This document shows, piece by piece, positions 40,310 through 46,732 of a stretch of DNA of 56,120 nt. The stretch is taken from positions 1-56,120 of the forward strand of contig NZ_NHOA01000031.1 in NCBI RefSeq assembly GCF_002727125.1, given 5' to 3'. Position numbers and translations under genes: made by a program. Under the pieces are notes generated by a model that was not told the origin of the DNA, ran no database searches, and was given only the letters and a program-made list of their open reading frames with translations. The number at the start of each line of letters is the position of its first letter. Within the stretch, counting starts at the first letter, position 1. Source of the DNA: Halorubrum persicum (GTDB taxonomy: Archaea > Halobacteriota > Halobacteria > Halobacteriales > Haloferacaceae).

Positions 40310-40316
40310 TTATATC
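40310..40316 (+). promoter_or_regulatory. TATA box of the dipeptide ABC operon
   Basis: TTATATC is centred 26 nt before the ATG at 40339. It is the only evident promoter for the five-gene transporter operon. Confidence 0.6.
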
Positions 40317-40338: not shown

Positions 40339-41997
40339 ATGTCACGCGACGACTCGGACGTGAACCGTCGGACGTATCTCACGTACGTCGGAGGCACTGC
40401 GGCCGCCGTCGGACTCGCCGGCTGTTCGGGCGACGGCGGCGACGGTTCTGACGGGGGCGACGGGAGCGACGGCGGCGACGGCGGCGACGGTTCTGACGGG
40501 GGCGACGGTTCCGACGGCGAGGACGGGGAACAGCTCCCGGAGCCGGAGACCCGCGAGGAGCACCTCCAGCGCGCGAACCTCCGGCTCAACCAGCGCGCGC
40601 CGTGGGTCTTCCTCAACCGCCAGTACAGCGTGTACGGCATCGCGAGCCGGCTCGACTGGACCGCCCGCCGCGACGAGCGGATCGAGGCGCAGGCCATCTC
40701 GGTGACCGAGGGCGAGCCGTCGGTCACGATCACCCAGTCGTCGATGGACTCGGGGCTCGACCCCCACGACCACCGCGAGACGCCGACCGACAACATCGTC
40801 GTGCAGGCTCACGACGGTGTGCTCGGCCGCAACGCCGACGGCGACATCATCGAGGGGCTCGCGACCGACTACGAGCGGCTCGAAGAGGGCCGGGTCCGGT
40901 TCGAGATCCGCGACGGCGTCACCTTCCACAACGGCGACGAGCTCCAGCCGTCGGACATCGCCTACAGCGTCAACCGGGTCGTCGACTCCGAGGTCGGGAT
41001 CGAGAGCCCGCAGAGCGACCAGCTCGCCGGCGTCACGGGCGCCGAGGTCGTCGACGGCGGCGTCGAGGTGACCTCAGACGGGGTCAACCCGATCGTGTTC
41101 TCGCTGTTCGCCTCGTACTGTAAGGTCGTCCAGCAGGACTGGATCGAGTCGCGCGACTCCTCGGAGATCAACTCCGACATGAACGGGACGGGCCCGTTCC
41201 AGGTCGTCGAGTACGAACAGGACGTGGAGATCGTCTACGAGCCCTACGAGGACTACTGGGGCGACGCGCCGGAGATCGAGGAGCTGACGATCCGCGCGGC
41301 CAGCGAGTCGAGCACGCGCGTCTCGCAGCTGCTCGCCGGCGAGACGGACCTCATCGTCAACGTGCCGCCCCAAGAGGTGAGCCGCGTCCGCGACGAGGAC
41401 ACCACGGAGGTCACGGCGGTGCCGAGCACCCGCGTCATCTTCAACGCGATGCGGTACGACGTGGAGCCCTTCTCCAGCCCGGAGTTCCGGCAGGCGATGA
41501 ACTACGCCATCGATCTCAACAGCATCATCGAGAGCATCCTGCAGGGGTTCGCCGACCCGACCGGCCAACCCACCCTCGAGGGGTTCGTCGGCGACAACCA
41601 AGACGTCGAGCCGTACCCGCAGGACGTCGAGCAGGCCGAACAGCTCGTCGAGGACTCCGGCCACGCCGGCGCCGAGATCACGCTCGAGACGCCCGTGGGC
41701 CGGTACCTCCGCGACGTGGAGATCGCGCAGGCCGTCGCCAGCCAGATCAACGAGCTCTCCAACGTCTCCTGTGAGGTCGAGCAGCGCGACTTCGCCTCGC
41801 TCGCGGGCGAGGTGACGAGCGGTAACATCGAGGATATGCCGCACTTCTACCTCCTCGGCTGGGGGAACACCACCTTCGACGCCAGCCAGACGATCATCCC
41901 GCTGCTCACCTCCGACGGAGCGCTCTCCAGCTACCGGGAAGACGAGGAGGTCGACGAGCTGATGGCCGACTCCCAAAACCTCCCGGGCGGAAACTAA
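40339..41997 (+). CDS. dppA: Dipeptide/oligopeptide-binding lipoprotein with permuted domain order
   Basis: 552 residues, SBP_bac_5 family. NRRTYLTYVGG is a Tat signal and LAGC at 26-29 a lipobox; a Gly/Asp/Ser linker fills 31-63. Residues 69-121 (TREEHLQRANLRLNQRAPWV, then FLNRQYSVYGIASRLDW) look like the C-terminal tail of this family, where other members read R..ly..aq..l...aP.. and end the protein. The normal beginning follows at about 127 (SVTITQSSMDSGLDPHDHRE) and the protein ends at YREDEEVDELMADSQNL, just where that tail should start. The order is thus circularly permuted. It should bind peptides outside the membrane and deliver them to the two permeases encoded next. A TTATATC box precedes the ATG. 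Confidence 0.88.
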   Translation: MSRDDSDVNRRTYLTYVGGTAAAVGLAGCSGDGGDGSDGGDGSDGGDGGDGSDGGDGSDGEDGEQLPEPETREEHLQRANLRLNQRAPWVFLNRQYSVYGIASRLDWTARRDERIEAQAISVTEGEPSVTITQSSMDSGLDPHDHRETPTDNIVVQAHDGVLGRNADGDIIEGLATDYERLEEGRVRFEIRDGVTFHNGDELQPSDIAYSVNRVVDSEVGIESPQSDQLAGVTGAEVVDGGVEVTSDGVNPIVFSLFASYCKVVQQDWIESRDSSEINSDMNGTGPFQVVEYEQDVEIVYEPYEDYWGDAPEIEELTIRAASESSTRVSQLLAGETDLIVNVPPQEVSRVRDEDTTEVTAVPSTRVIFNAMRYDVEPFSSPEFRQAMNYAIDLNSIIESILQGFADPTGQPTLEGFVGDNQDVEPYPQDVEQAEQLVEDSGHAGAEITLETPVGRYLRDVEIAQAVASQINELSNVSCEVEQRDFASLAGEVTSGNIEDMPHFYLLGWGNTTFDASQTIIPLLTSDGALSSYREDEEVDELMADSQNLPGGN

Positions 41998-42003
41998 GGC
42001 CCG

Positions 42004-43023
42004 ATGGCGCTGGGACGGTTCCTCCTGAAACGCGGGATCCAAGGCGTGCTGGTCGTGTGGGGGGTCGTGACCGCGGTGTTCCTGCTGCGGTTCATCACCC
42101 CGGGCAACCCGGTGACGTTCGTCGCGCCGCTGGACGCGGGCCAAGAGCTTCGCGCCCAGATAGCCGCGGAGTTAGGTCTCGATCAGCCGCTGTACGTCCA
42201 GTACGCCGACTACATCGTCGGGCTGCTGCAGGGAGATATGGGCTACTCGTACCTCCGCGGGACGGAGGCGAGCACGATCGTGCTCGCCCGCGTGCCGGCG
42301 ACGGTCGAGCTGGCGGTCGCGGCGACCGTCGTCGCGATCGTGATCGCGATCCCGCTGGGCGTCATCAGCGCGACGCGGCGGCGCGAGCCCGCCGACTACG
42401 GGGCGACCCTGTTCTCGCTGGTCGGGATCTCGACGCCGAACTTCTGGCTCGGGATCATGCTCATCCTGGTGTTGTCGGTGCAGTTCGACCTGTTCCCGAC
42501 GAGCCGGCGGCCGATCGGCCTCTTCGAGACGGTCACGTTCCTCGTCACGGTCGACAACGGGATCGCCGCCCCGATGAACGTCGGCGCGTTCCTCGCCGGG
42601 CTGCGGACGTGGCTGTGGCACATCGCGCTCCCGGCCGTGACGCTCGGGACGTACTTCACCGCGCTCGTCACCCGGCTCACGCGGAGCGGGATGATCGAGG
42701 AGCTCGGACAGCCGTACGTGCGCGCGGCGCGGGCGAAGGGGCTTCCGGAGTCGCTGATCCAGTACAAGCACGCGCTCCAGAACACCCTCATCCCGATCGT
42801 CACCGTGTTGGGACTCCAGTTGGGGACCCTGATCGGCGGCGCCGTGATCACGGAGGCCGTGTTCTCGTGGCCCGGGCTCGGCACGCTCGTCATCGACTCG
42901 ATCAACGTGCGCGACTGGCCGCTGATCCAGGGGTCGCTGATCGTGATCGGGACCGGGTTCGTGCTGATCAACATCTTCGTCGACGCGCTGTACGCGTACC
43001 TCAATCCGCGGGTGGTCCACTGA
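42004..43023 (+). CDS. dppB: Dipeptide/oligopeptide ABC transporter permease (DppB type)
   Basis: 339 residues with six membrane helices. N-terminal signature (LLKRGIQGVLVVWGVVTAVF) and DppB features PVTFVAPLDAG and QYADYIVGLLQGDMGYSY. The EAA motif that contacts the ATPases is YVRAARAKGLPESLIQYKHA. It starts 6 nt after the binding-protein gene and ends at a TGATG junction with a small overlapping frame. It forms the membrane channel with the DppC-type subunit. Confidence 0.94.
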   Translation: MALGRFLLKRGIQGVLVVWGVVTAVFLLRFITPGNPVTFVAPLDAGQELRAQIAAELGLDQPLYVQYADYIVGLLQGDMGYSYLRGTEASTIVLARVPATVELAVAATVVAIVIAIPLGVISATRRREPADYGATLFSLVGISTPNFWLGIMLILVLSVQFDLFPTSRRPIGLFETVTFLVTVDNGIAAPMNVGAFLAGLRTWLWHIALPAVTLGTYFTALVTRLTRSGMIEELGQPYVRAARAKGLPESLIQYKHALQNTLIPIVTVLGLQLGTLIGGAVITEAVFSWPGLGTLVIDSINVRDWPLIQGSLIVIGTGFVLINIFVDALYAYLNPRVVH

Positions 43024-43166
43024 TGATGAACCGAAACTGCTCCGCTCGCTCACGTGGTGTCGAGTGTCGTCCGATCGGCGTCGGGTGCCGGCCGATCGAG
43101 GTCGCACGCGGGGAGTCCCCCCGACGTGAGCCCCCGACGATCGCTCCCGAGGTGAGCGTCCGATGA
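43023..43166 (+). CDS. Possible 47-residue coupled ORF between dppB and dppC
   Basis: The frame opens at an ATG inside the dppB stop (TGATG, 43023) and closes with a TGA overlapping the dppC start (ATGA, 43163-43166), so it exactly spans the 139-nt gap by overlaps at both ends. The peptide begins MMNRNCSARSRGVECRPIGV and has three Cys in a basic context, unlike the acidic proteome. It may be a coupling peptide that carries ribosomes to dppC, or chance in GC-rich DNA. An in-frame second ATG lies at 43026. Confidence 0.3.
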   Translation: MMNRNCSARSRGVECRPIGVGCRPIEVARGESPRREPPTIAPEVSVR

Positions 43167-44182
43167 TCTCGCCCCGGACGCTCCGGAACCTCCGGAGCGA
43201 GCTCTCCCGGAGCCTCCTCGCGAAGCTCGGGATCGCGATCCTCGCGGTCATCCTGTTTATCGCGCTGTTCGCTCCGCTCCTGGCGCCCCACGACCCGACG
43301 GAGCAGGACCTCGACAACACGAACATCCCGCCGCTCGGCTTCACGGCGACGGAGAACCAGACGACCTCGGAGATGGTCGACGGCGAGGTGAAGATCGTCG
43401 AGAAGCAAGTCGTCGTCAACACCACGGCCGAGCACCCGCTCGGGACCGATTCGCTCGGCCGGGACGTGCTCTCGCGGACGATGTTCGGCGCGCGCACGTC
43501 GCTGCTGGTCGGCCTGTTCGGGACCGCGATCGCCGTCGTGCTCGGCGTCACCGTCGGGATCACGGCCGGCTACTACGGCGGCCGGATCGACGACGCGCTG
43601 ATGCGCTTCGCCGACGTGATGTTGGCGTTCCCGTCGCTCGTGTTGGCGATCGCGCTCATCGGGCTGTGGGGACAGGCCTCGCTCCGTCTCCCCGACCCGC
43701 TGGTCGCGTCCGGAATCGCCTCCCAGACGATGCCCGAGAGCATCGTGTTACCGGGGACCGTGATCGCCGTCGTCGCGCTCGTGAACTGGGTGTGGTTCGC
43801 CCGCGTCGCGCGGGGGGAGGCGCTCTCCGTGCGCGACCAGGAGTACGTGAAGGCGGCGCGATCGATGGGCGGAAGCGACCTCCACGTCATACTCAAACAC
43901 GTGCTCCCGAACAGCCTGACGCCGATCCTCGTGCTCGCGACGATCCAGATCGCCGCGATCATCCTGCTCGAGTCCTCGCTGTCGTTCCTCGGCTTCTCCG
44001 GGGCACAGCTCTCGTGGGGCTTCGACATCGCGCAGGGGCGGCAGTACCTCTCGTCGTCGTGGTGGATCGCGACCGTCCCCGGGTTGGCCATCGTCGCCGC
44101 CGTCGTCGGCATCAACCTGATCGGTGACTGGCTGCGCGACGCCCTCGATCCGGGGATCGAGGGACAGGGGGGTGCGTCGTGA
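43163..44182 (+). CDS. dppC: Dipeptide/oligopeptide ABC transporter permease (DppC type)
   Basis: 339 residues. A soluble N-terminal segment precedes the first helix (LLAKLGIAILAVILFIALFA), followed by an external insertion (about 55-90) and the typical HPLGTDSLGRDVLSRTMFGA. The EAA loop reads YVKAARSMGGSDLHVILKHV. It pairs with the DppB-type subunit. The stop overlaps the next start by 4 nt (GTGA). Confidence 0.94.
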   Translation: MISPRTLRNLRSELSRSLLAKLGIAILAVILFIALFAPLLAPHDPTEQDLDNTNIPPLGFTATENQTTSEMVDGEVKIVEKQVVVNTTAEHPLGTDSLGRDVLSRTMFGARTSLLVGLFGTAIAVVLGVTVGITAGYYGGRIDDALMRFADVMLAFPSLVLAIALIGLWGQASLRLPDPLVASGIASQTMPESIVLPGTVIAVVALVNWVWFARVARGEALSVRDQEYVKAARSMGGSDLHVILKHVLPNSLTPILVLATIQIAAIILLESSLSFLGFSGAQLSWGFDIAQGRQYLSSSWWIATVPGLAIVAAVVGINLIGDWLRDALDPGIEGQGGAS

Positions 44183-45408
44183 CCGACCTGCTGCGCGTCC
44201 GCGACCTCTCGACGCGCTTCTTCACCGAGGAGGGACAGATCAACGCGGTCGAGGGCGTCTCCTTTACCGTCGAGGCCGGCTCCGTCCTCGGCGTCGTCGG
44301 CGAGTCCGGCAGCGGGAAGTCCGTCACCGGGCTCTCGCTCATCGATCTGGTCGAGTCGCCGGGAGAGATAACGAGCGGGGAGATCTGGTACAACAACGCC
44401 GACCTCGCGGAGCGGGTCGAGAGCGACCGGCCGGAGGCGGTCGACGGCGACTTCGTCGATCTCCGCCGGCTCTCCGAAGCGGAGCGTCGGTCGCTCCGTG
44501 GCTCCGCGTTCAGCATGATCTTCCAGGACCCGATGAGCAGCTTCAACCCCTCGATCACCGTCGGCGAGCAGATCGCCGAGGCGGCCGAGGTGCAGCGCCG
44601 CGCGAGCGCGAACCCGCGCTCGACCCGGTCGCGGACGCAGGGGTACGGGCTGGGTCGGATGCTCCTCGACGGCGTCCTCCCCGACCGCTCGTACACCTCC
44701 GAGGAGAGCTGGGACCGCGCGGTGGAGCTGCTCGAGCGCGTCGGCATCCCGGACCCGGCCGAGCGCGCCGAGGAGTACCCCCACCAGTTCTCCGGGGGGA
44801 TGTTACAGCGCGCGATGATCGCGCAGGCGCTCGCCGGCGATCCGGATCTGCTCGTGGCCGACGAGCCGACGACCGCGCTGGACGTGACGATCCAGGCGCA
44901 GATCCTGGACCTGCTCGCCGACCTCCAGGAGACTATGGAGATGAGCGTCGTGCTCATCACCCACAACTTGGGCGTCATCGCCCGGGTCGCCGACCGGGTG
45001 AGCGTCATGTACGCCGGCGAGGTGGTCGAGCGCGGCACCCTCGACGACGTGTTCGACGACCCGGTCCACCCGTACACGAAGGGGTTGCTGGGCTCGGTCC
45101 CGGACATCGACCGCCCCGGCGAGCGGCTCGAACCCATCGCCGGCAACGTGCCGGACCTCGTCGACGCGAACATGCCGGACCGCTGCTACTTCGCCGACCG
45201 CTGTCCGAAAGCCATGACCGACTGTCTCACGCGACCGCCGGAGTACGAGGTGAGCGGCAACCACCGCGCCCGCTGCGTGCTCGCCGAGCGCGAGTACAGC
45301 GAGGCCGACGCGGTTTCCGACGCGAGGCTCTCGGGGCCGACCGACGGCGGCGCAGGTGCCGCCTCGGACGGGTCGAGCGCGCCAGACGGGGAGGTGAGCG
45401 ATGACTGA
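44179..45408 (+). CDS. dppD: Peptide ABC transporter ATP-binding protein (DppD type)
   Basis: 409 residues from a GTG that overlaps the dppC stop. Walker A GESGSGKS at 41-48, Q-loop [15 protein letters not shown] signature [14 protein letters not shown], Walker [13 protein letters not shown], and H-loop [12 protein letters not shown]. The C-terminal peptide-transporter region has the complete four-cysteine set CYFADRC-x6-C ... C that can bind [4Fe-4S]. A Gly/Ser/Asp tail follows. It energises transport together with the next gene and overlaps it by 8 nt. Confidence 0.95.
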
Positions 45409-46732
45409 CCCGCTGGTCCGCGTCGACGGCCTCGAGAAGTACTACTACGAGAACGACACGCTGCTGGACCGGCTGACCGGCGCGGAGCCGGAGGCCGTGC
45501 GGGCGGTCGACGGCGTCTCCTTCGAGGTCCGCGAGGGCGAGACGCTCGGCGTCGTCGGCGAGTCCGGCTGCGGGAAGTCGACGCTCGCGGAGACGCTGAT
45601 GCGGCTCCGCGAGCCCACGGGGGGTTCCGTGACGTTCGACGGCGACCCGGTGTACGATCTCTCGGGCGACGACCTCGACGCGTTCAGGCGGCGGGCGCAG
45701 GTGATGTTCCAAGATCCGTTCTCCAGTCTGGACCCCCGGATGACCGCCGGCGAAATCATCACGGAGCCGCTCGCGATTCACGACGTGGGGACGGTCGCCG
45801 AGCGGCGCGAGCGCGCCGAGACCCTCCTGGAGGAGGTCGGCCTCTCCGCCGATCAGATCGATCGGTACCCCCACGAGTTCTCCGGCGGACAGCGCCAGCG
45901 CATCGGGTTCGCCCGCGCGCTCGCCATCGATCCGGAGTTCATCGTCCTCGACGAGCCGGTGTCGGCGCTCGACGTGAGCGTCCAGGCGCAGGTGTTGAAC
46001 CTGCTCGCCGACATGCAGGCGGAGCGCGACCTGACGTACCTGTTCATCGCGCACGACCTGTCGGTGGTGCGGCACATCAGCGACCGCGTCGCCGTGATGT
46101 ACCTCGGCGAGGTCGTCGAGATCGGTCCCACCGAGGAGATCTTCGAGAGCCCGCAACATCCGTACACGAAGGCGCTGTTGGAGTCCGTGCCGCGGGCGGA
46201 CACCGACGAGCGGGACCGCGTCGTCGAGACGATCCGCGGCGACGTACCCTCGCCGCGGAACCCGCCGTCGGGATGTTCGTTCCGAACGCGGTGCCCGGAG
46301 CTGATTCAGCCGCCGGGACTGGACGTGCCGCAGGCGACGTTCCGCGAGATCAGCGACTTCAGGACCCGTATCGAGAACGGCGACATCGACGTGGACCTGC
46401 GGTGGGAGCAGGTCGGCGACGCGAACCGCGAAGACCGGGCGGCGTTCGTCGACTCGCTCCGCGAGGAGGCGTTCGACGAACCGCTGCCCGACGCCGACGA
46501 GGAGACGGTCCGTGAGGCGATCCGCGCGCTCGCCGACGGGGACCGCGAGACCGCCGCCGCGACGCTTCGGGAGCGGTACCGGTCGCCCTGCGAGGCGGTC
46601 GAACCCGCGCTCCCCGCGGGAGACCACCCCGACGCGTGCCTGCTGAACGAACAGCCGGACGACGTGGAAGCGGCCCGCGAGGAGTGGGAAGCGGAGCACG
46701 ACGCGTCGGGAGTCGGGACGCCGTCGCAGTAG
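45401..46732 (+). CDS. dppF: Peptide ABC transporter ATP-binding protein (DppF type) with insertion
   Basis: 443 residues, longer than usual. Walker A GESGCGKS at 53-60, Q-loop [11 protein letters not shown], signature [14 protein letters not shown], Walker [13 protein letters not shown] and H-loop IAHDLS are intact. The C-terminal cysteine region is split: Cys292 and Cys298 (GCSFRTRC) are followed only 98 residues later by Cys397 and Cys413 (SPCEAVEP and DACLLN). The inserted stretch (about 300-395) is acidic and helical ([35 protein letters not shown]). Loop length between the second and third Cys is normally six or seven. The gene ends the operon. Confidence 0.93.

Follow-up and report, generated by a model that had tools for sequence, protein, structure and literature searches.

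Introduction

Among the binding lipoproteins of ABC importers, MglB-2 of Treponema pallidum (Tp0684; placed in a proposed 'Cluster Bc') is circularly permuted, and its binding and conformational change have been shown experimentally (PMC4990184). Tethering has been suggested as a reason for this permutation, with tension on strand 1 disturbing the ligand site (PMC4990184). The protein has the sugar-binding fold of cluster B, its N-lobe strands have moved to the C-terminus, and the permuted part aligns poorly (13% identity) and carries a large insertion (PMC4990184). Saposin/swaposin, DNA methyltransferases, and transhydrogenases are other natural circular permutants, for which an origin by duplication or by fission-fusion has been proposed (PMC3320104). 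In E. coli, the binding protein DppA (PF00496), of ordinary chain order, belongs to an operon of the order A-B-C-D-F, and a scoop motif in the permease DppB contacts both lobes of DppA (PMC12136057).

In this study, we analyzed a 56,120-nucleotide stretch of the Halorubrum persicum genome (contig NZ_NHOA01000031.1; hereafter, the window), in which a gene at 40339-41997 (+ strand) encodes a 552-aa Tat lipoprotein of solute-binding protein (SBP) family 5 with a permuted chain order. Like MglB-2, this is a natural circular permutation of a binding lipoprotein that is conserved in relatives and in which the fold is retained, as predicted for the haloarchaeal protein. Unlike MglB-2, it belongs to cluster C/family 5, it is the C-terminal helix and strand that have moved to the N-terminus, the moved tail is still 63% identical to that of ordinary relatives, and one locus holds either the ordinary or the permuted form. 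With E. coli DppA, the receptor shares the (predicted) fold, the operon order, and a core that aligns over DppA 1-453; it differs in chain order, in a tether at the last helix rather than at strand 1, and in sequence (about 19% identity). Saposin/swaposin, the methyltransferases, and the transhydrogenases have other folds, and intermediates are known for the methyltransferases, whereas none was found for the haloarchaeal receptor. The ordinary-order receptors L120, Halorussus L066/L067, and Halorubrum L210-L213 are 58-69% identical in the core and head the same operon with the tail at the C-terminus, and L210-L213 occupy the chromosomal slot of the permuted gene.

No report on permuted family 5 or haloarchaeal SBPs was found among open-licence papers. 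To our knowledge, it is rare for a natural circular permutant to have close relatives of ordinary order, and the two forms are often too diverged for comparison. Here, they are about 65% identical, belong to orthologous operons, and share one slot in one genus, and this closeness makes it possible to test, almost in isolation, how chain order and anchor position affect folding, Tat export, and transport. We read the locus as a fold-preserving circular permutation in the sole receptor of a dppABCDF-type operon, through which the membrane tether would have moved and which would have arisen at least twice at one loop; we give this reading a probability of about 0.93. The receptor would thus present a case in which protein ends were re-wired in nature with the predicted fold and job kept.

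Chain Order of the Receptor

All features with coordinates between 40310 and 46732 lie on the + strand. A TATA-like box (TTATAT, 40310-40315), read from the sequence about 24 bases 5' of the ATG at 40339, would fit a leaderless haloarchaeal transcript beginning at that ATG. The frame opens with a Tat signal peptide (NRRTYL) and a lipobox (LAGC; 40339-40425, read from the sequence), the twin arginine and cysteine being those of haloarchaeal Tat lipoproteins with Cys29 as the predicted lipidated residue. A flexible Asp/Gly/Ser linker with an LPEP lead-in, likewise read from the sequence, follows at aa 30-69 (40426-40545). Next to it stands the C-terminal tail of the SBP fold in its relocated position (aa 70-121, 40546-40701), consisting of a helix, a long strand, and a terminal segment and delimited by the match to L120, a tail HMM, and the secondary structure of the model. 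The old C-end is joined to the old N-end at 40702-40710 (VTE, then GEPSVTITQ), as placed by the sequence, the model, and BLASTP, and neither a second signal peptide nor a long linker is left at this join. The family 5 core then runs in ordinary order over aa 125-549 (40711-41985; L120 match, Pfam PF00496) up to a new C-terminus of GGN and the stop codon (41986-41997), which corresponds to the loop leading into the tail helix in ordinary-order proteins; the sequence terminates in ...DELMADSQNLPGGN.

In BLASTP comparison with the ordinary-order L120, the core (aa 125-549) corresponds to L120 1-425 with 67% identity and the tail (aa 70-121) to L120 428-479 with 63% identity (E 5e-19), with no meaningful match beyond this pair. 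The two parts are therefore homologous to a single ordinary protein, each present once and in swapped order. An HMM built exclusively from the C-terminal tails of ordinary-order proteins matched the N-terminal segment of the permuted receptor (76 bits, E 8e-24 in a small sequence set), and among the collected SBPs it matched once per protein, on the N-terminal side of the core in permuted proteins and on the C-terminal side in ordinary ones, with none carrying a tail at both ends. A profile made only of permuted N-terminal tails (A3), when searched against the PDB, had as its six top matches the C-terminal ends of AccA-type SBPs (residues ∼437-482 of ∼490-499), weakly at 16.8 bits and E 0.04. 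The tail residues R..L...N...APW.FL.RQYSVYG...W..R.DE are conserved alike in both orders. An ordinary family 5 protein ends in a helix and strand after the C-lobe; since this tail lies at aa 70-121 and has no copy at the C-end, the protein is a permuted variant rather than an ordinary member of the family. In sequence terms, the C-terminal ∼52 residues have moved in front of strand 1, behind the lipobox linker, which makes the protein a true natural circular permutant. A tail duplication, the intermediate of permutation by duplication, was considered and rejected, as the collected set held no two-tailed protein.

These results bear out most of the original prediction, which had called the gene circularly permuted with the C-terminal end of ordinary SBPs (given as residues 69-121) right after the lipobox linker: the frame, start codon, Tat motif, Cys29, linker, and protein end were all as described, and the shift of the membrane tether that it had proposed follows directly from the sequence. 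It had placed the normal first strand at about residue 127; the core begins slightly earlier, at about residue 125. Pfam gives no hint of this arrangement. The PF00496 (SBP_bac_5) match covers only aa 170-527 (E 6.6e-64; 216.8 bits against a cut-off of 32.4), which leaves the relocated tail invisible, and annotation by Pfam, detecting the middle domain only, masks the changed chain order.

Predicted Structure

AlphaFold2, run with a permuted alignment, returned a model with a mean pLDDT of 83.8 and a pTM of 0.80, weak at model residues 344-351, while the ordinary control L120 scored higher (pLDDT 93.5, pTM 0.89). In a sequential structure comparison, residues 60-485 of the permuted model were paired with E. 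coli DppA 1-453 (Z 28.5, 418 residues), leaving the first ∼57 residues of the model and the last 54 of DppA unpaired; the control was paired at 3-481 with DppA 1-507 (Z 42.0, 473 residues). Under a sequential aligner, such complementary unmatched ends are, in the predicted structure, the signature of a circular permutation. With this pTM and Z-score, the receptor is predicted to have the bilobed cluster C fold, in agreement with the earlier suggestion that the rearrangement could preserve it. The tail is made up of a helix, a long strand, and a short terminal strand in permuted model (H5-19, E22-35) and control (H427-444, E447-460) alike, and in the former, only a few residues join the terminal segment (residues 54-55) to the next strand (61-66). 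Secondary structure, sequence identity, and the complementary unmatched segments together suggest that the relocated tail sits in the ordinary tail site.

A tail that folds by itself or packs on a neighboring molecule, so that the core lacks its last strand, would be compatible with the lower confidence of the permuted model relative to the control and with a tail position that is deduced from indirect features. Yet the secondary structure and conserved residues are alike in both orders, the join to strand 1 is as short as expected for packing on the protein's own core, and the pTM is 0.80, and we consider domain swapping or separate folding of the tail highly improbable.

For the preferred fold-preserving permutation, the chain would have been opened in the surface loop preceding the last helix, a loop that presumably tolerates new chain ends, and the last ∼52 residues would have been fused to the start of strand 1 without a linker or signal peptide, presumably by gene duplication and trimming, following a model reviewed elsewhere (PMC3320104). 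The Tat/lipobox/linker module would now run into the last helix. The fold and the Venus-flytrap mechanism may have been retained because the old ends are, as predicted, near enough for joining by a few residues. The entry point of the lipid tether would have shifted from strand 1, in the N-lobe, to the final helix, in the C-lobe region, an assignment of helix and strand to lobes that we take from the lobe boundaries of DppA.

Operon and Docking

The permuted gene heads a complete dppABCDF-type operon that extends to 46732, with intact genes for a DppB-type permease (42004-43023; PF00528, PF19300), a DppC-type permease (43163-44182; PF00528, PF12911), a DppD-type ATPase (44179-45408; PF00005, PF08352), and a DppF-type ATPase (45401-46732; PF00005, PF08352). 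With the OppBC/DppBC permeases and two oligo_HPY ATPases directly downstream, the permuted protein is the sole receptor of this peptide-type ABC importer operon. None of the NCBIfam equivalogs reached its cut-off for the permuted receptor (80.1 bits against 1005 for the DppA equivalog NF043070), and the term 'dipeptide-binding' in the original prediction exceeds this evidence and is only a family guess from sequence.

In Halorubrum, one slot beside a phosphoribosyltransferase-like regulator gene is occupied by the permuted gene in 10 genomes and by its ordinary-order counterpart in 25. Comparing four ordinary loci (L210-L213) with the window, the flanking genes (regulator, purine-permease-like, prenyl-synthase-like, and npdG-like) are 86-98% identical, while all five operon genes (40339-46732 in the window) are just 58-73% identical and hyp182, a short gene adjoining dppA, is divergent too (53-60%). 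The whole dppABCDF operon is thus exchanged at one Halorubrum slot. That permuted and ordinary receptors serve interchangeable operons argues that the permuted receptor does the same job, and it is probably functionally equivalent to the ordinary form.

The contact of the DppB scoop with both DppA lobes (PMC12136057) makes an effect of the permutation on docking conceivable, and the original prediction had expected docking on the permeases to be altered. We found no support for this. Linker length is alike in both orders (median 39 in permuted and 37 in ordinary receptors), with no sign of the length compensation that was sought, and no permutation-specific residues were found in DppB, DppC, and DppD (80/20 threshold) or in the SBP core (75/20 threshold). 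Along with the slot shared with ordinary-order operons, these observations suggest that docking is probably unchanged and that ligand delivery to the permeases would most likely be so too.

A selective cause might nevertheless underlie the moved tether, if an anchor on the C-lobe side were favored, e.g., where a strand 1 under tension would perturb the ligand site. The recurrence of the permutation, with at least two events at one haloarchaeal loop and another loop in a different archaeal family, its long retention, and the tethered bacterial precedent of MglB-2 (PMC4990184) would speak for such selection, but the shared Halorubrum slot more often holds an ordinary-order operon (25 genomes against 10) and no linked changes accompany the permutation in linker, permeases, or core. 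We regard adaptive relocation as unlikely, and prefer a permutation that probably left fold and docking as they were. The repeated origin makes the cause testable, be it tolerance or selection for anchor position.

Distribution in Haloarchaea

The permuted order, scored from query alignments that begin at the tail and continue through the core, was found in 46 species-level haloarchaeal genomes from several families, several of them single-contig. Carriers include ten Halorubrum genomes (H. persicum among them), Halolamina, Halobaculum, Halobium, Salinarchaeum, an uncultured Halobacteriales MAG, and further genera and families, and the permuted gene is 89-95% identical in the nine other Halorubrum genomes and 42-73% in other genera. 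Within Halorubrum, the core dN/dS is about 0.14-0.23 (leaving out the ratios of L058, whose codons are put out of register by an insertion/deletion), and the frames are uninterrupted, indicative of purifying selection.

The original prediction had allowed for an assembly join, and the only point in favor of such an artefact, or of a frameshift or misannotation hiding a gene of ordinary order, is that the window comes from a draft-genome contig. An assembly join is ruled out by the same order in independent and single-contig genomes, and the sharing of this order among Halorubrum and other genera in uninterrupted frames under purifying selection leaves the artefact as a whole with practically no probability.

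A few loci depart from the common layout. In L094 (genome G062), permuted dppA and dppB form one 915-codon frame without an intervening stop, which reflects a fusion or else an error in sequencing. The permuted dppA is apparently frameshifted in its 3' part in L065/L111 (Halolamina pelagica CDK2) and L185 (genome G370), with intact genes in related genomes. Three permuted receptors (L099, L100, and L101) have an extra Gly/Ser/Asn-rich extension of ∼20 residues beyond the new C-terminus. Halobium (genome G072) carries the permuted L077 together with an ordinary-order paralogue (L142) that is about 50% identical and has no recognizable permeases adjoining, and L145 (genome G198) has two adjacent dppBCDF-type operons.

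Number of Origins

In the core tree, the permuted genes fall into one main group and, far from it, a set of three (L108-L110), whose clade has a fourth, apparently frameshifted member (L152/L185). AU tests on the core rejected a single clade of all permuted genes (p = 7e-6) and did not reject the main group as one clade (p 0.195). The permease tree scatters the main group, for which a single clade was rejected (p 0.0026) with the frameshifted permuted gene L065 counted as permuted. Taken with the exchange of operons, this scatter suggests recombination or further gains and reversions.

It is conceivable that all permuted haloarchaeal genes descend from one event and that, in the second clade, the core and the greater part of the tail were later replaced by recombination. 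Both clades share the same break loop and a similar PE.PTRE lead-in, whole-operon exchange occurs, and in the AU test on the tails alone one origin was not rejected (p 0.107). Against this stand the rejection by the core and the tails themselves: in the tail-only tree, the main tails form one side of a branch and the second-clade tails group with those of ordinary relatives, with which (e.g., L144, L154, and L156) they share LHQQ[YF]SIYG and DEDI. We consider a single origin distinctly unlikely, and judge that haloarchaea probably acquired the permutation at this loop two or more times independently, a count that is uncertain because whole-operon exchange and recombination blur the trees.

Recurrence in Other Archaea

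A profile search of the phylum retrieved four receptors of another archaeal family (L184 and L191-L193, from genomes G584, G517, G525, and G564) in which the permutation lies at a different loop: the chain opens with the final portion of the C-lobe and the tail (profile positions ∼336-453) and goes on with the N-lobe (3-320). With a second family permuted at another loop, circular permutation is recurrent in archaeal family 5 receptors. Conceivably, though at less than even odds in our judgment, repeated permutation, by setting the membrane anchor at another point of the fold each time, lets anchored archaeal receptors explore anchor position, and the two kinds of operon replace one another as alleles of a single slot. 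An N-terminal lipobox is present in L191-L193; L184 (6733-8472, - strand) has a C-terminal PGF-type transmembrane segment and lies at the end of a dppBCDF operon.
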